Shown: positions 958 to 10,120 of the stretch, in pieces | Position numbering within the stretch: position 1 is the stretch's first letter | Layout of the letters: the number at the start of each line of letters is the position of its first letter | NCBI RefSeq assembly: GCF_014396785.1 | Contig: NZ_CP060718.1 | Coordinates: 1,074,501-1,138,500, forward strand | DNA: 64,000 bases | Source of the DNA: Sphingomonas lutea | GTDB taxonomy: Bacteria; Pseudomonadota; Alphaproteobacteria; Sphingomonadales; Sphingomonadaceae | Reading direction: 5' to 3' | Position numbers and translations under genes: made by a program | Notes under the pieces: generated by a model | Seen by the model: the letters and a program-made list of their open reading frames with translations, nothing else | The model's database searches: none | What the model was told of the DNA's origin: nothing

Positions 958-1002
958 CGCAAAGCAGTTGTTTCACCGCCGTTACGGGCTAGAATATGGC
1001 CC

Positions 1003-1218
1003 GTGCATGACGTGAACATTATCGAGCGAGCGTATCAGCTCGCCGCCGAATCCGGGTCGGTCGACGAAGTCCGACGCAAGCTCACCCAAGAGGGCTACCT
1101 CCAGGTGGCGGCGCATTTGAGCGGTCCGCGGATCCGCGCCGACATCCAGCAGCGCCTGAATCCTCGGCTGGTGCCGCCAAAACCGCCCCGCAAGCAGCCT
1201 AGCGCCGACGCACCCTGA
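1003..1218 (+). CDS. Small conserved hypothetical protein
   Basis: 71-aa cytoplasmic protein from GTG 1003 (alternative GTG at 1012), with no membrane segment or signal. Its N-terminal half looks helical (IIERAYQLAAESGSVDEVRRKL) and the last 20 residues are proline- and lysine-rich. The pattern 'ERAYQLA-SG-VDEVRRKL-EGY' resembles small proteins annotated only as hypothetical in sphingomonads; I do not recognise a function. Its 3' end overlaps the convergent gene 1199-1729 by about 20 bases, so the two messages would be antisense at their ends. Confidence 0.65.
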   Translation: MHDVNIIERAYQLAAESGSVDEVRRKLTQEGYLQVAAHLSGPRIRADIQQRLNPRLVPPKPPRKQPSADAP

Positions 1219-1729
1219 CGTCGCGGACATAACCGCGATAGTCGACGGTGCAGCGGAAGGTCAGGTCGCCGCCGCCGCTGTAGGTCGGCCCCACATATTG
1301 CCCATATTGCCCGTACTGGTTGACGTTCATGCCGCTCGACATGAGGCCGCGGATACGCAGCCCGTCGGAGCGGCGTTCGACGTCGGTAATGGCGGTAACG
1401 CGGATATTCGCAGCGTAGGGATTGGCGTAGCCACCGCCGTAGGGCTGCGGGTAGCCATAGCCGCCGCCGTAGCCGCTATATTGATTCGCGGCCTGGGCCA
1501 CCGCCGCGGCGGCGCATTGCTGGATGGCGGTACGGTCGTTGCCGGCGTAACGGCCGCCAAGGATCTGATCGAGCACCTGGCCGATGACATTCCCGCCATA
1601 AGGCTGGGCCGGGTAGGGTGCCGGGTACGGCGCGGGGTATGGCGCTGCATAGGGATATTGTGCCGCCACCGGGGCAGCAGCGGAAGCGGCGATGGCGGCC
1701 GCGGTCAGAAGCCTGGCGAGAATGGTCAC
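1199..1729 (-). CDS. Exported Tyr/Pro/Gly-rich hypothetical protein
   Basis: 176-aa protein with an N-terminal signal peptide (TILARLLTAAAIAAS...PVAAQ) followed by a low-complexity stretch of four YPAP-type repeats and a Gly/Tyr-rich middle segment. The C-terminal 60 residues are ordered, beta-like and hold one cysteine (FRCTVDYRGYVRDVRVRRR). I chose the GTG at 1729 because a GAGGAG Shine-Dalgarno lies about 8-10 nt upstream and the signal peptide starts there; the frame is open much farther upstream but that part is not gene-like. No function is recognised; the composition suggests a periplasmic or envelope protein. It is convergent with 1003-1218. Confidence 0.75.
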   Translation of the reverse strand: MTILARLLTAAAIAASAAAPVAAQYPYAAPYPAPYPAPYPAQPYGGNVIGQVLDQILGGRYAGNDRTAIQQCAAAAVAQAANQYSGYGGGYGYPQPYGGGYANPYAANIRVTAITDVERRSDGLRIRGLMSSGMNVNQYGQYGQYVGPTYSGGGDLTFRCTVDYRGYVRDVRVRRR

Positions 1730-1834
1730 GACTCTACTCTCCTCGATTGCCGCCGCTGGGCATAGCATAGTCGCGCCGTAGCGGCGCGGCCTGGCTTGCC
1801 CTACACCTGGTGCCGTCGAGACGGGGGCGGCGGG

Positions 1835-2395
1835 ATGGACAGTTTCAGCTTCGTCTTTTCCTTGTTCGGGCTGCTGATGGGACTTGCCCTGGCCGAGGTG
1901 ATCAGCGGGCTCGGCACGGTGATCGAGTTGCGGCACAAGATCCGCGTCGGCTGGCTGACGCCCTTGCTCGCTCTGCTCATCGCCTTCGACCTGACGAGCT
2001 TCTGGATGGTCGCATGGCAGGTCCGCGAAGCGGTGCCGGTCAACTTCCTCAGCCTGATGGTCGGGCTCCTGGTGTTCGGCATCTATTACCTCATCGCCCA
2101 GATCGTCTTTCCCGACGACCTCGACCTGTGGCCCGACCTCGACGCTTATTACTGGCGGCACAAACGCTGGCTGCTGGGGGGCATGTACACCTGCAACATC
2201 GTCGCGCTGGCGGGGCAGCAGGCGATCGGCCTCGACCCCTTTGGCGCTCCCAAGACGATGCTTGCGCTGAGCGCGTTCAGCCTGGGCATGGCGGGCGCGA
2301 TCCTGCTGCCCGGCAAGCGCATCAACATCGCCTTCCTGCTCTACCAGATCGCGCTTTACCCGGCCTTCGCGATCGTTGGCATCATGGGCGCCTGA
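1835..2395 (+). CDS. Integral membrane hypothetical protein (5-6 TM)
   Basis: 186-aa inner-membrane protein. Hydrophobic segments occur near residues 4-24, 40-58, 70-88, 112-130, 140-155 and 162-182, with short polar loops (e.g. FPDDLDLWPDLDAYYWRHKRW between TM3 and TM4). The ATG at 1835 is preceded by a G-rich stretch usable as a ribosome-binding site; an earlier in-frame start would add a hydrophilic tail before the first helix. It has no known domain that I can name; similar proteins are found as uncharacterised single genes in sphingomonads. It stands alone between two genes on the other strand. Confidence 0.75.
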   Translation: MDSFSFVFSLFGLLMGLALAEVISGLGTVIELRHKIRVGWLTPLLALLIAFDLTSFWMVAWQVREAVPVNFLSLMVGLLVFGIYYLIAQIVFPDDLDLWPDLDAYYWRHKRWLLGGMYTCNIVALAGQQAIGLDPFGAPKTMLALSAFSLGMAGAILLPGKRINIAFLLYQIALYPAFAIVGIMGA

Positions 2396-2435
2396 CCGCC
2401 TAAAGCGGGGCCAGGCCGGCCACCCACATGACAAA

Positions 2436-2465
2436 GGGCCCGGCGGGTTTGATTCCGCCGGGCCC
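2436..2465 (-). terminator. Strong hairpin terminator of the 2487-2825 gene
   Basis: Perfect 11-bp G+C-rich stem (2436-2446 with 2455-2465) and an 8-nt loop, 20 bases past the stop of the minus-strand gene at 2487. On the minus strand it is followed by a short TTT run; on the plus strand no T-run follows, so it mainly serves the minus strand. Confidence 0.75.
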
Positions 2466-2486
2466 CATCGCTCAAGTTACGCGAGC

Positions 2487-2825
2487 TTACTTGTTCTGCT
2501 TGAGCTTCTGGCGCTGGACGACGTCCGCCAGCGCGGCCGAGCCGCTGGTCGCGTTGCAGGTGGCATTGCCTTCCTTGCGCAGCGCACCCAGCGCGTTGAC
2601 CGTGGTGCCGCAGACGTTGGCGGCGACGCTGATCGGCGCCTGGACGGTGATCGGCAGGCCGATGTTGTTCAGGGCGGCGATCTGCGTGTCGTTGAGGAAG
2701 TTGTTGAGGATGTCGACGTTCTGGATCTGAACGGCGACGAGCCCCTGCGAATTGCCGACCTGGGCGGCGGCGGGGGTGGCGACGGCAGTCACGGCCGCAG
2801 CAGCGGCGATCATCATCTTACGCAT
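2487..2825 (-). CDS. Small secreted protein with chaplin-like Cys-x17-Cys motif
   Basis: 112-aa exported protein: signal peptide of about 22 residues (MRKMMIAAAAAVTAVATPAAAQ), a beta-prone segment (GLVAVQIQNVDILNNFL), then a block around Cys72 and Cys90: NVCGTTVNALGALRKEGNATC. The sequence VQAPISVAANVCG followed by V-x-x-LG-x-L...GN-x-x-C matches the layout of actinobacterial chaplin domains (two cysteines 18 residues apart, the same NVCG and GN-C surroundings). The tail is charged (VQRQKLKQNK). GGAG lies 9 nt upstream of the ATG. Chaplins are secreted amyloid-forming surface proteins of Streptomyces; whether this is homology or convergence cannot be settled by eye. It is monocistronic with its own terminator. 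Confidence 0.8.
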   Translation of the reverse strand: MRKMMIAAAAAVTAVATPAAAQVGNSQGLVAVQIQNVDILNNFLNDTQIAALNNIGLPITVQAPISVAANVCGTTVNALGALRKEGNATCNATSGSAALADVVQRQKLKQNK

Positions 2826-3405
2826 TACATAGTCTCCATTTCACAAAAGAATGAGGGCGCCCGAAGACGCCCGCCCTTTTCCCGCATCATCCGTGCAGGT
2901 TGGGGGGTGAAACGCACGACAATCCAATGGTTTGCACGCTTGCGGCGGGCCGAGCCGCACCAGGGGCAGGCCCCCGGTGCGCCACCGAAACGGTCCCGGA
3001 AGGTCACAGAAAGTCGCACTCGCCACGCGCGCGCGATGCGACGGGGCGGGGGTGAAAAGCCCGGCCGGAGGGGGAGCCGGCCGGGCTTCCTACGCGCCGA
3101 TGGGGGAATCGGCTGACAAGGCGCGCCAGGCGCGCACTTGTTCGGGGAATGAGGGACATTCCGCCCATTTCGGCCGCCTCTTGCGGGCGGCTCGCGCCCG
3201 TCAAAGCGGCTGCGGCGGCCGATGGAAACGGCTTAACGGCGGGCCGAGCCGCGGCGGGGGCAGGAAGAGTCGGATGGCAGACTTTCACGCGCACAAGCGC
3301 CGCGATTAACTTTGCGTTGGCGAGCGGGCGTGCCCGCGCCGGCGCCGCACCTGACCTTAAGGCCGCAACGCGGAACGCGCGGCGCGACGGGCGGGTTAGG
3401 GGGGC
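2826..3405. other. Gene-free stretch (580 bp) with a large hairpin
   Basis: No convincing gene on either strand. Next to 2825 it holds the promoter and leader region of the small secreted protein. At 3057-3088 there is a 12-bp perfect hairpin (separate entry). The rest is G+C-rich and without a recognisable RNA family. On the minus strand a frame from about 3288 down through the hairpin stays open but is low-complexity Ala/Pro/Arg and I do not call it. Confidence 0.5.
3057..3088 (-). terminator. Orphan terminator-like hairpin
   Basis: Perfect 12-bp stem, arms 3057-3068 and 3077-3088, 8-nt loop. On the minus strand the stem runs directly into TTTT, the form of an intrinsic terminator, yet no protein gene lies upstream of it on that strand before 3405. 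It could end an unannotated small RNA transcribed leftward from about 3100-3400. Confidence 0.5.
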
Positions 3406-3645
3406 ATGGCCTTCACCCAGCTCGCCCCGCCGATCCCCCTGCACGTCACCGACCGCGGCACCGGCGTCGCCATCGCGGTGATCGATTACGGCCAGGATTA
3501 CGACCTGTTGTGGATGGTCGGCATGGACGACGGCGGCGAGATCTGGTGCGTCCCCAACCCGCAGGTGCGGCTGCAGGCCAATTGGTCGATGGGCCGGCGC
3601 AAGAAGACCCCGGCAAATACCAAGATCGCGGCGATCGGCGGGTAG
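3406..3645 (+). CDS. Small conserved hypothetical protein
   Basis: 79-aa soluble protein (MAFTQLAPPIPLHVTDRG...) with no signal or membrane segment. The sequence is beta-rich (GTGVAIAVIDYGQDYDLLWMVGMDDGGEIWCVPNPQVRL) with a basic tail (GRRKKTPANTK). An AGGGGGG Shine-Dalgarno directly precedes the ATG. The DYGQDYDLLWMVGMDDGGEIWCVPN core looks like a conserved fold of unknown function found in small sphingomonad proteins. Nothing nearby hints at a role. Confidence 0.7.
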   Translation: MAFTQLAPPIPLHVTDRGTGVAIAVIDYGQDYDLLWMVGMDDGGEIWCVPNPQVRLQANWSMGRRKKTPANTKIAAIGG

Positions 3646-3979
3646 CCGCGGGCCCAGACCCGAAAAGTCACAAAGTTCACGTTCGAGCGCGTGCGCGATG
3701 AGGCCAGCGCCTCCGTGTGCGCGCGGCGCGGTGTGACCTTTTGTTAGCGGCGAGAGGCGCCCTTCGACATGGCTCAGGACCGGCATCCGGCAGGGTAAGG
3801 CACGGATGGGGTGCTGTAGGACAGCGAAATCGATGCGAGTAGCGGTCGCACGTCCGATGGCGGCCAAGCCAAGTTGGTAAACTTTTTGCATAACTGAAAA
3901 AGTTGATGCAGCTTTAATAAGCTGGAGCTCGGGGCACGAGTCGGGTCGAACGTCACGACCGCGATGGAAGGAGCAGACC
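3646..3979. other. Intergenic stretch with REP remnant and upstream region of 3980 gene
   Basis: 334 bp without a gene. An imperfect pairing GTCACA (about 3667) to TGTGAC (about 3731), followed by TTTTG, could act as a terminator for 3406-3645. Around 3762-3785 there is a half copy of the REP family (CCCTTCGACATGGCTCAGGA). The AT-richer last 100 bases probably hold the promoter of the small gene at 3980; I see no clear sigma or EcfG (GGAAC-N16-CGTT) match. Confidence 0.5.
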
Positions 3980-4132
3980 ATGAGCAATGACAACATCGGA
4001 AAAGACGTCGGGAAAGGCCTGAAGGGCATCAAGGACATGTACGGCAAAGGCGGAATGATCGACCAGTTGAAGACCGCCGGCGAAAAGCCGACCGGTCCCG
4101 CCTCCGGCGACAAGACCAAAGGCGGAAAATAA
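3980..4132 (+). CDS. 50-aa Lys/Gly-rich small hydrophilic protein
   Basis: Small gene encoding MSNDNIGKDVGKGLKGIKDM... and ending TKGGK, 50 aa. GGAAGGAG lies 7-8 nt before the ATG, which supports real translation. The protein has no cysteine or aromatic core apart from one Tyr, is rich in Lys, Gly and Asp, and is likely disordered. It is the first of three adjacent genes for short, charged proteins (4211, 4569), which suggests a stress-protein cluster; that role is inferred only from composition and context. Confidence 0.65.
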   Translation: MSNDNIGKDVGKGLKGIKDMYGKGGMIDQLKTAGEKPTGPASGDKTKGGK

Positions 4133-4210
4133 CCCTCAAACCATGGGTGTAAGCCCGCACCGTTTCCGGACGGACCCACAGAATGTGCGCAATGCACAGG
4201 GGAGAAAGCC

Positions 4211-4503
4211 ATGAAACCCAAGGACGAGGACGAGCCGTTCGAACCCGGACCGAAGGACTTCCCACCGGAACCGACCTATCCACCGTGGAAGGACCCCAAG
4301 CCCAAGGAAGTGCCGGGTGGCGGCTGGAAAGAAGCCATCCACCCGGAGGAGGGTCAACACCCGGAGATTCCCGGCGACGAGGTGCGGAAAAGGGCGTGCC
4401 CAAATTCAAGGAGCCCGGGGATTACCCCGATAAGCCTCCGGCCGAGCCCTATGACGGTCTGCCGAAGGACTGGAAGGACGCCGAAGACAAGAAGGCCTTC
4501 TGA
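4211..4503 (+). pseudogene. Frameshifted Pro/Asp/Lys-rich small hydrophilic protein
   Basis: Starts at ATG 4211 after a GGGGAGAAAG ribosome-binding site and reads MKPKDEDEPFEPGPKDFPPE... for about 58 residues of proline- and charge-rich sequence. Near 4383-4392 (GTGCGGAAAAGGG) the same composition continues in the -1 frame (AEKGVPKFKEPGDYPDKPPA...DAEDKKAF) to a stop at 4501-4503, while the starting frame turns into Arg/Ser-rich noise. One base is missing compared with an intact gene of about 97 codons. Either this is a real inactivating deletion, a sequencing error, or a -1 frameshift; the site is not a canonical slippery heptamer. Confidence 0.65.
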
Positions 4504-4568
4504 GGCGGTCGACCAGATCAATTCCGACTGTACCCGCGTTCCAATCGAATTCGTGAAGGAGAATGACG

Positions 4569-4751
4569 ATGGCCGACGATAAAGCACCCGACACGGGTCA
4601 CACAGAAACCGATAAGGCAATGGAAAAGCTGGTCGACGACCCCGACTTTGGCACGATGCAAAATACGCCCGAGCCCACCAAGGCCGAACCCGCAGACCTT
4701 GAGAAAGAGGCGAAGGAGTGGGAGCAGAACCACCCAAAGGGTCCGTTCTAA
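4569..4751 (+). CDS. 60-aa acidic small hydrophilic protein
   Basis: Reads MADDKAPDTGHTETDKAMEK... and ends EQNHPKGPF; strongly acidic with many Lys and Glu, no signal, likely disordered. The ATG at 4569 has GGAG 8 nt upstream; the ATG at 4563 is too close to it, so 4569 is preferred. Third member of the cluster of short charged proteins at 3980-4751. Function unknown; the composition recalls hydrophilin or stress-induced proteins. Confidence 0.65.
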   Translation: MADDKAPDTGHTETDKAMEKLVDDPDFGTMQNTPEPTKAEPADLEKEAKEWEQNHPKGPF

Positions 4752-4810
4752 GGTTTGCTGGCCCGGCTTAGACGGCGGCCGCCGTGGCCGGGCCGCTCTC
4801 GTAACAGATC

Positions 4811-5149
4811 ATGTGGCAGACGATCGCAACCGCCGCGGTGACGGCGCTGCTGACGTCGGGCGGGGCCTACCTGCTCGCGCGGCAGCGCATGCGCGAGGAA
4901 TTCCGGCTGCAGTTCCGGGCCGAAACCTTAATCCGCAAATTGCTGTCGAACGAAACCTGGGCGCTGCGCAGCTTTGACGTGATCAAGCACCATGTCGGCG
5001 GCTTTGAGGATGACGCATTGCGCCAACTGCTGGTCAGAGCCGGCGCCGTCCGTTTCCACGCGAAGGGCAAGGAAATGTGGGGTCTTTATGAGCGCACGCA
5101 GCATGCGCTCGACGGGACCGACAGCTACGACAAGCTGCTCAAGCCCTAA
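4811..5149 (+). CDS. Hypothetical protein with one N-terminal membrane helix
   Basis: 112 aa. Residues 2-22 (WQTIATAAVTALLTSGGAYLL) form a membrane anchor, followed by a charged helical cytoplasmic part (RMREEFRLQFRAETLIRKLL...) ending in EMWGLYERTQHALDG. Looks like a helical, possibly coiled-coil, membrane-tethered protein. No recognisable family. Its stop codon directly abuts a DUF2726-like fragment in another frame, suggesting a rearrangement point at about 5150. Confidence 0.65.
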   Translation: MWQTIATAAVTALLTSGGAYLLARQRMREEFRLQFRAETLIRKLLSNETWALRSFDVIKHHVGGFEDDALRQLLVRAGAVRFHAKGKEMWGLYERTQHALDGTDSYDKLLKP

Positions 5150-5150
5150 G

Positions 5151-5345
5151 GCGCTCCACAGGATCGAATATCAGGGCGGCGGCCACTACAAAGGCGCCCA
5201 CACCATCGCCGCGCGCGACGCGGTCAAGAAGGAAGCCCTGCGGCGGGCGGGGATTGGGTATGTTGAGGTTGTCGCCGGTGATACGCCCGCTGAGCTGCGG
5301 CGGGTGGAGGAGCGTTTGGTACTGGCCGCTCCGTTTAACACCTAG
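5151..5345 (+). pseudogene. C-terminal remnant of a DUF2726/endonuclease-like protein
   Basis: An open frame without a plausible start encodes RIEYQGGGHYKG...ARDAVKKEALRRAGIGYVEV, which matches the C-terminal core of DUF2726-type proteins (PD-(D/E)XK-like; conserved VEYQGxxHY and RDAxKxxALRxAG). About two-thirds of such a protein is missing. The fragment follows directly on the 4811-5149 gene and precedes the reverse transcriptase, marking an edge of the accessory segment. Confidence 0.6.
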
Positions 5346-5411
5346 ACTCCGGCAACCGATTACGGCAGCGTCACTTCGCCGGATCGACGCGAATTACTAA
5401 GAGGCCTGGGA

Positions 5412-7040
5412 ATGGCTACGTTTGGTCTGGATGGCCCACTTATTAAGCGTCTCAAGAAAGAGGTTGATGTTGGGCGTGTCCGACAGGACCAGTTCAATGA
5501 CTTCTTTGTGTTACCGCAACTCGACGCCATCTACGTACATTGCGCAGACAAGTTGAAAGATTTGGTAGCTGAGAAGCTATCCAAAAGTGCTTACGGCCCA
5601 AAGTCGCCTATCGAAATGGAAGTTCCAAAAGGAACTCGCGTCTCCACGAGGCAGGCGCCAATAATCGGCCCAAACTACTTCCGCCCGGGAACCGTCCTTC
5701 TTCCTGAGGATCGGATCGTATATCACTTCATTGGGCAAGAGGCTCAGCCGATTGCTGAAAAGGGGATAGATAGGGATCACGTATACAGTTACAAACCAGC
5801 GAAGAAGAAAGGTGAGGGCTTTCTACTGGCTTCTGGGCAGTGGACTGCTCTCCGCGAAGCTTTCGAGATCGAGGCGACTTCTGGCAAATACACCCTAGTT
5901 TTGAAGTGTGACGTTGCGCAATATTTCACTACCGTTAATCAGCATGAGTTGGTTAATCAGCTTGAACACCAAGGTTTCTCTTCAGAAATGGTGAAATTTA
6001 CGGAGAGATTTCTAGGCGGACTGACAATAGACCGAAGCTCCCGCGGATTGGTTCAAGGTTCATTTGGATCGGACGTTCTTGGAAACGCTTACCTTATTGG
6101 TGTCGATGAATTCGTAGGGGATAGCGGACTCGCCTACTATAGATATGTTGACGATTACTATATCCTCTTCGAAACACAAGACCAACTGAAGGATCTTTTC
6201 CCTAGGTTTGTCAAAAGGTTGCGGGAATACGACCTTGCCTTAAATGAAAGCAAGTCATTTATTACGTTACCAAAACGGCTTCTTCGTGACGAGACGGAAC
6301 TGGACAAGGCGTTTGCTAGAGCGAAGGCAGAGGCCGAGGAGTTGCTTACAGACTACGAGGAGGTCGAAGTAGAAGGAGATTATGGGTCTGAAAGTTACAT
6401 CGAAACCGTAGAGACGGTGCCGGATCAGGAGGAAGTGGAACTGGCAGCTACTCACGAGATTTTCGATCGATTGGAAGAATTTAAGGGAGACGAACGTGAT
6501 CGGGCGGAAGCGTTCTGCCTCGCATTTTTTCGTCGCGCTTCAGATCCTGCTGCCCTCGATTACGTACTCAGCCGATGGGCGAGGAGTCCGGACAAGGCCA
6601 AGGAGTATGCCCTGTACCTCAACCGGTTCGTAGCCGACGAAAAACATCGTCCCAAAATCGATAAGGCATTCGTCGATGCTGCGGAGCAGATGCTAGATTT
6701 TCAATGGGCTTGGGCTGCATTAATTGCGAGGCGAATGACGAAAGTGTCAGGCGAACTTTTGGCACTCGCAGCCAAATACCAATCGGATGGCGACCGTCAC
6801 GAGGTGGTGAGGTCTCTGCTCACATACATTGTGTGTAGGCAGGGTTCTCCGGCCCGAAAAAAGGCGATCCGAGATGGTTATGCCGGGGCCCCGCTCTTGG
6901 TCCAACTAGCGACACTACACGCGAGTGGCGACTTCACGTCAGCCGAGCAGGCCGGTCTACTCACAACTGCAGAGGCCCACGGCGAACTGCAGGGATTGAT
7001 GTGCGACGCTGTTCGAGCCGCTAAGAAAGCTGCGAAATAG
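5412..7040 (+). CDS. Reverse transcriptase of the abortive-infection/DRT-like ('unknown group') kind
   Basis: 542-aa RNA-directed DNA polymerase. N-terminal block 90-126 (FRPGTVLLPEDRIVYHFIG...RDHVYSY), motif A LVLKCDVAQYFT with catalytic Asp167, motif B RGLVQGSFGSDVLGNAYL (211-228), motif C YRYVDDYYILFE with Asp247/Asp248, motif D LALNESKSF (275-283). An acidic linker (about 300-345) leads to a C-terminal helical region of some 200 residues. There is no maturase X domain, HNH, integrase or protease, so not a group II intron or retroelement RT; no HEPN RxxxxH motif is evident, unlike AbiA. This architecture is known from phage-defence RTs (Abi/DRT). Base composition is near 50% G+C against about two-thirds around it, indicating transfer. 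Stands alone, ending 2 bases from convergent uvrA. The exact class is unassigned. Confidence 0.88.
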   Translation: MATFGLDGPLIKRLKKEVDVGRVRQDQFNDFFVLPQLDAIYVHCADKLKDLVAEKLSKSAYGPKSPIEMEVPKGTRVSTRQAPIIGPNYFRPGTVLLPEDRIVYHFIGQEAQPIAEKGIDRDHVYSYKPAKKKGEGFLLASGQWTALREAFEIEATSGKYTLVLKCDVAQYFTTVNQHELVNQLEHQGFSSEMVKFTERFLGGLTIDRSSRGLVQGSFGSDVLGNAYLIGVDEFVGDSGLAYYRYVDDYYILFETQDQLKDLFPRFVKRLREYDLALNESKSFITLPKRLLRDETELDKAFARAKAEAEELLTDYEEVEVEGDYGSESYIETVETVPDQEEVELAATHEIFDRLEEFKGDERDRAEAFCLAFFRRASDPAALDYVLSRWARSPDKAKEYALYLNRFVADEKHRPKIDKAFVDAAEQMLDFQWAWAALIARRMTKVSGELLALAAKYQSDGDRHEVVRSLLTYIVCRQGSPARKKAIRDGYAGAPLLVQLATLHASGDFTSAEQAGLLTTAEAHGELQGLMCDAVRAAKKAAK

Positions 7041-7042
7041 GC

Positions 7043-10120
<3,078 letters not shown>

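Follow-up and report, generated by a model that had tools for sequence, protein, structure and literature searches.

What kind of reverse transcriptase (RT) is encoded by a solitary, AT-richer gene next to uvrA in Sphingomonas lutea, and what might the enzyme do? The gene lies in a stretch of 64,000 nucleotides of contig NZ_CP060718.1 (positions 1,074,501 to 1,138,500 of the forward strand), here called the window, whose own numbering is used throughout. An earlier note on this DNA had proposed a candidate anti-phage RT that it could not place in a known DRT class. Profile matches and a phylogeny now assign the protein to UG20, as a sub-clade (beta) that is sister to the UG20 core. By analogy with characterized systems, we consider it somewhat probable that the gene arrived by horizontal transfer and encodes a stand-alone defence RT of Class 1 architecture, which would carry out template-free DNA synthesis primed by Tyr324. 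The gene and its parts are as follows.

5412..7040, + strand: UG20 (sub-clade beta) reverse transcriptase gene, an open reading frame (ORF) of 542 amino acids, defined by RVT_1, the UG20 profile and the alignment
5412..6347, + strand: RT domain, residues 1-312, with D167 at 5910-5912 and YVDD (245-248) at 6144-6155, from the structure model and the alignment
6348..6425, + strand: flexible acidic linker, residues 313-338, with the candidate priming Tyr324 (codon 6381-6383) and a pLDDT (predicted local distance difference test) of 56 at residues 321-330
6426..7037, + strand: C-terminal helical repeat, residues 339-542, with 12 helices in the structure model

The ORF contains an RVT_1 domain (E 1.5e-14 in a Pfam search), and its best PADLOC profile is RT_UG20, which matches residues 3-534 of 542 with 568 bits and is followed by UG21 (144) and Drt8 (132). 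The UG20 match rules out an RT of no known class, so that the gene could be placed where the earlier note had left it unassigned. No NCBIfam model reached its cut-off for this protein. The naming of the PADLOC profile reportedly goes back to the classification of UG/Abi RTs that Mestre et al. proposed in 2022. The name UG20 was not found in any relevant paper of the literature searched and, as far as that literature goes, the chemistry of the group looks unstudied.

A protein search with the window RT returned 55 rows, consisting of the protein itself, 53 homologues or fragments with 52-88% identity and one DRT8 protein (P0055). We coined the name beta for the set with the window RT and alpha for the UG20 core. 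The beta sub-clade is mostly metagenomic, with 84% identical relatives of the window RT in metagenomes. The alpha proteins, from three genomes (G538, G1081 and G1653) and from plasmids of Candidatus Manganitrophus and Sinorhizobium medicae, score 718-759 bits on the UG20 profile and share about 31% identity with the window RT. In a midpoint-rooted RT-domain tree of 56 chosen rows, which included 15 beta and 15 alpha proteins and left out L013 (a UG13a), alpha and beta were joined with support values of 95/87, with 91/95 for beta alone and 99/97 for alpha alone. DRT8, UG9 and three group II intron RTs all fell outside this join. Under this root, the group II RTs are drawn adjacent to UG20, as the branch that follows on its side (98/88), a deeper order that long-branch warnings make uncertain.

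Three other identities were considered and rejected. A group II intron RT or maturase, which the earlier note had named, along with the RTs of diversity-generating retroelements, as a placement that would speak against its proposal, scored 76 bits against a TIGR04416 cut-off of 300, in addition to the position of the window RT outside the group II intron RTs in the tree, a comparison that did not extend to diversity-generating retroelements. An St85-type retron scored 32.9 bits against the 235-bit cut-off of the St85 family RT model, and DRT8 scored 132 bits versus 568 for UG20.

The core motifs were found at the residues that the earlier note had named. For alignment A3, we combined the window RT with all 43 other full-length beta proteins (P0002-P0044) and 46 of the 120 alpha proteins; P0055 had been included in alignment A1, was found to be a DRT8 and was dropped from A2 and A3. 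Across 90 aligned relatives, D167, R211-G212, Q215-G216 and D247-D248 were invariant and Y245 nearly so. The start of the gene matches that in relatives.

The structure model is confident (pLDDT 91) and consists of the RT domain, a flexible acidic linker and a helical repeat, which bears out the linker and the helical C-terminus expected earlier. Among the matches listed in the fold comparison, those covering the whole protein were DRT6, AbiK (455 residues) and DRT4, while the non-coding RNA-dependent DRT2 and DRT9 matched over the RT domain only. In the Class 1 UG/Abi group, the RT is joined to a helical domain (HEAT-like, alphaRep); the model and the whole-length matches show an RT with a helical domain, and the predicted architecture is that of Class 1.

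One residue of the linker stands out. Position 324 is a tyrosine in 44/44 beta, 120/120 alpha and 116/117 DRT8 sequences (281 aligned proteins) and is the sole linker column (313-338) common to the three groups. The DRT8 exception is P0055, in which the tyrosine is located three columns further (FDPYS) and aligns with Y324 in a different alignment. Inspection by eye of six further DRT8-type proteins revealed a tyrosine in L009, L012 and L113 (FDPYS), L014 (DPYT) and L004 (VYDD). The DRT8 equivalent, Y303 of P0176, is the same in all 63 sequences aligned and is placed at a helix end adjoining the lowest-confidence stretch (305-311) of the DRT8 model. In the part of PMC11077055 available to us, the conserved priming Tyr298 of AbiA lies in a loop between the RT-like and helical domains. 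Its place and conservation make Y324 a candidate primer, a prediction that would bear on DRT8 too.

Under the mechanism that we favour, the RT would oligomerise and use its own Tyr324, in the flexible linker that joins the RT domain to the helical repeat, as the attachment point of the first nucleotide, from which it would extend DNA with no nucleic acid as template. A trigger made by the phage might then stabilise or unleash the DNA product, and growth of the infected cell would stop. The analogy is nearest to DRT4, which the part of PMC13314766 available to us presents as Tyr-primed and template-independent. Going a step further, and tentatively, UG20 and DRT8 could together be a branch of the UG/Abi RTs that primes from the linker, in which DNA is made on one linker tyrosine (Y324, or Y303 in the DRT8 of genome G238) as in AbiA and unlike AbiK, and in which the helical repeat holds a hinge-tethered and possibly patterned product.

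Several observations weigh against this interpretation. The highest-Z fold matches were group II intron and diversity-generating retroelement RTs (Z 20-23, 249-288 residues, in the RT domain), so that it is coverage that carries the fold evidence. Y41, a tyrosine at frequencies of 0.98 in beta, 0.88 in alpha and 0.33 in DRT8, is a further candidate primer. By eye, the DRT8-like L005 and two UG9 proteins have no clear counterpart of Y324. The priming tyrosine of AbiK lies N-terminally according to the same portion of PMC11077055, and Class 3 DRTs are likewise described, in a source seen in part, as protein-primed and template-free.

The product could also be patterned and protein-templated rather than random, as for DRT3b, a Class 1 enzyme for which an excerpted source reports poly(dC-dA) synthesis without a nucleic-acid template. 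We regard such a product as rather unlikely.

A different template source was suggested by the 261 nt upstream of the gene (5151-5411), where the earlier note had placed a possible non-coding RNA. Two features were identified here.

5148..5321, + strand: remains of a DUF2726 gene (its 3' end), with 86% identity to residues 165-222 (the last 58 but two) of the intact DUF2726 protein in genome G238; the left edge of the insert is at its end
5346..5411, + strand: leader of the RT gene, with AAGAGG at 5399-5404 as a putative ribosome-binding site, identified by eye

The DUF2726 fragment beside the RT is thus real, with a Pfam score of 19.9 bits that is below the cut-off of 24.7. DNA similarity to 12 same-genus loci was confined to 5148-5328, and the edges of the insert are located near 5321 and 7041. 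Class 2 DRTs carry cis non-coding RNAs, as described in sources seen in part, and an RNA from in or beside the gene might serve as template for a cDNA of defined repeats, which is the case for DRT2, DRT9 and DRT10. However, most of the region is the gene remnant, its predicted RNA fold is no better than that of shuffled sequences (z +0.61) and a scan of 4400-7600 against Rfam gave no match at E up to 1. Comparison of the flanks of five loci (the window, G1711, G538, G1081 and L017) with blastn, for which there was no positive control for detection, yielded chance-level words only (E of at least 0.38). Taken with the DRT2 and DRT9 structures, which fit the RT domain only, these results lend the proposed RNA no support and make a Class 2-like mechanism unlikely.

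As side observations, DUF2726 3' pieces recur in the slot beside uvrA in related genomes (L068 5278-5424, L070 3263-3394, L081 5901-6002 and L086 6206-6331, besides 5148-5321 in the window), L068 and L086 contain a nearly complete DUF2726 copy in addition to the 3' piece, and the genome of the window has another copy of the 5148-5321 stretch elsewhere.

The G+C content of the RT gene is 50.7%, compared to 65.5% +/- 2.7 for stretches of 1629 nt, and is the minimum of the whole 64 kb, in agreement with the drop to about 50% described earlier. At third codon positions it is 52% in the RT gene versus 90% in uvrA. Within the family of the window (397 genomes), UG20 at high score was found in the window only, and 12 further genomes had matches at 76-118 bits. 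Nine of the 13 weaker UG20-profile matches in the family were classified, as six DRT8, two UG9 and one UG13a, and four were left unclassified. Including the window, high-scoring UG20 genes were present in 2/385 genomes of a class sample and 2/398 of a phylum sample; for the two new carriers, the counts within their families were 1/40 and 1/297, the carrier itself each time. One genus of the family had UG20 in 2/280 genomes (G1711, beta; G1653, alpha). In the window's own genus, matches were obtained in 2/61 genomes, namely the window RT and the G238 DRT8 with 26% identity, and the RT itself in 1/61; the syntenic, vertical inheritance in all relatives that the earlier note had named as counter-evidence to its proposal was not observed. 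The foreign-type G+C content and the patchy occurrence lead us to read the gene as horizontally acquired. No relatives of the RT were confirmed in collections of viral contigs and genome contigs, which is a weak negative as genomes in the samples counted above do carry UG20, and a phage collection gave one partial RT match (26% identity over 44%).

An arrival so recent that the gene is now unexpressed or non-functional would agree with the DUF2726 remnant next to it and with a scan of 5100-7200 for sigma-70-like promoters that found 0 sites versus 1.0 in shuffles. But the scan covered one promoter type only, the RT is full-length with every invariant residue retained, and 84% identical relatives exist in metagenomes, so that we judge a dead gene quite improbable.

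The right-hand neighbour of the RT gene hints at a cellular role, such as repair or mutagenesis.

7043..10120, - strand: uvrA, convergent with the RT gene, the stop codons being 2 bp apart; the fixed right edge of the hotspot described below

Such a non-defence role appears very improbable, since the RT is beside uvrA in only the one same-genus genome and other UG20 genes sit elsewhere, close to integrases, toxin-antitoxin or defence genes. These settings, together with that of an interrupted relative, were as follows.

G1711 (beta): HsdM, Fic, resolvase, RT, an unknown 187-aa gene downstream and an integrase
G1081: integrase and RES genes
G1653: a 337-aa gene (6688-7701) that overlaps the RT start (7701) by one base, and a resolvase-like gene after the RT, identified by eye
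Candidatus Manganitrophus plasmid: toxin-antitoxin genes nearby
Rhizobium acidisoli plasmid (interrupted relative without group assignment): DarT, macro-domain and SIR2 genes nearby

No recurring partner gene was seen among the UG20 loci looked at, and neither the 337-aa nor the 187-aa gene was repeated.

We surveyed the 3' side of uvrA in 41 same-genus genomes, from 57 others with a match, giving 42 loci with the window. The RT had been described as located between conserved genes; this holds for uvrA, but the other side differs among relatives. The distance from uvrA to sodC was at most 150 bp in 8 loci and 2.8-6.1 kb in 12, while sodC was not found within the stretch in 22. The 2 kb beside uvrA had a G+C content of 0.578 versus 0.665 at 5-7 kb away (n=38, Wilcoxon p 2e-10), with values <0.58 in 20/42 loci versus 0/38. 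The 3' side of uvrA (958-7042 in the window; L064-L103 and L023) is a cargo hotspot with defence-type genes, set against control stretches by base composition only. Its ORFs were selected with a home-made filter, and some are perhaps not genes; contents, counted by family, were:

G238: DRT8, in the same tail-to-tail arrangement with uvrA as the window RT
L068: DarT1 with NADAR, and an Mrr-type gene
L089: SMODS
L074: SIR2-STAND
L066, L083, L094, L096: AAA_15/AAA_21 (OLD-like)
L064: YaaC
L076: DndB-like
L090: AlkB-like
L080: RadC
L081: CBS
L070: HD (PADLOC dGTPase)

Other ORFs had no Pfam match. Large, AT-richer ones without a match at the limits used were present in L086 (547 aa), L088 (547), L092 (594) and L079 (429), and these are possibly unknown defence genes. 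The slot offers a small, well-bounded site in this genus in which to seek new defence genes.

Diverged extra copies of the uvrA 3' end (36-66% identity) were also seen beside uvrA (L073 7734-9001, L081 8335-9100, L087 2077-2489, L094 8495-9001), and look like the traces that elements inserting at the gene end would leave. The 27 bp at 7083-7109, close to where uvrA ends, are a dispersed short repeat, with 100% copies at several places in this genome and in sister genomes.

The UG20 profile, the whole-length similarity to DRT6, AbiK and DRT4, the company of defence-type genes and the patchy occurrence all strengthen the proposal of a solitary anti-phage RT. New here are the beta sub-clade, the tyrosine common to UG20 and DRT8, and a single slot that is occupied by UG20 or DRT8 depending on the strain.

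Among known systems, the UG20 core resembles the window RT in its best full-length profile, its position as sister clade and a solitary layout at several loci, and differs in its higher profile scores, its low identity and its linker sequence, which is distinct in beta. DRT8, reported as antiphage without a settled mechanism in the available parts of two reviews, shares the slot (in G238) and the linker tyrosine, but is separated by profile score (132 vs 568 bits), by clade and by an identity of about 25-26% over the RT. AbiK, Abi-P2 and AbiA likewise combine an RT with a helical domain at 10-13% identity, and AbiA has a HEPN domain whereas the window RT has no Pfam HEPN match. DRT4 (UG15) and DRT6, both of Class 1, are like the window RT single-gene systems with a fold that matches over the whole length, despite an identity of 12-14%.
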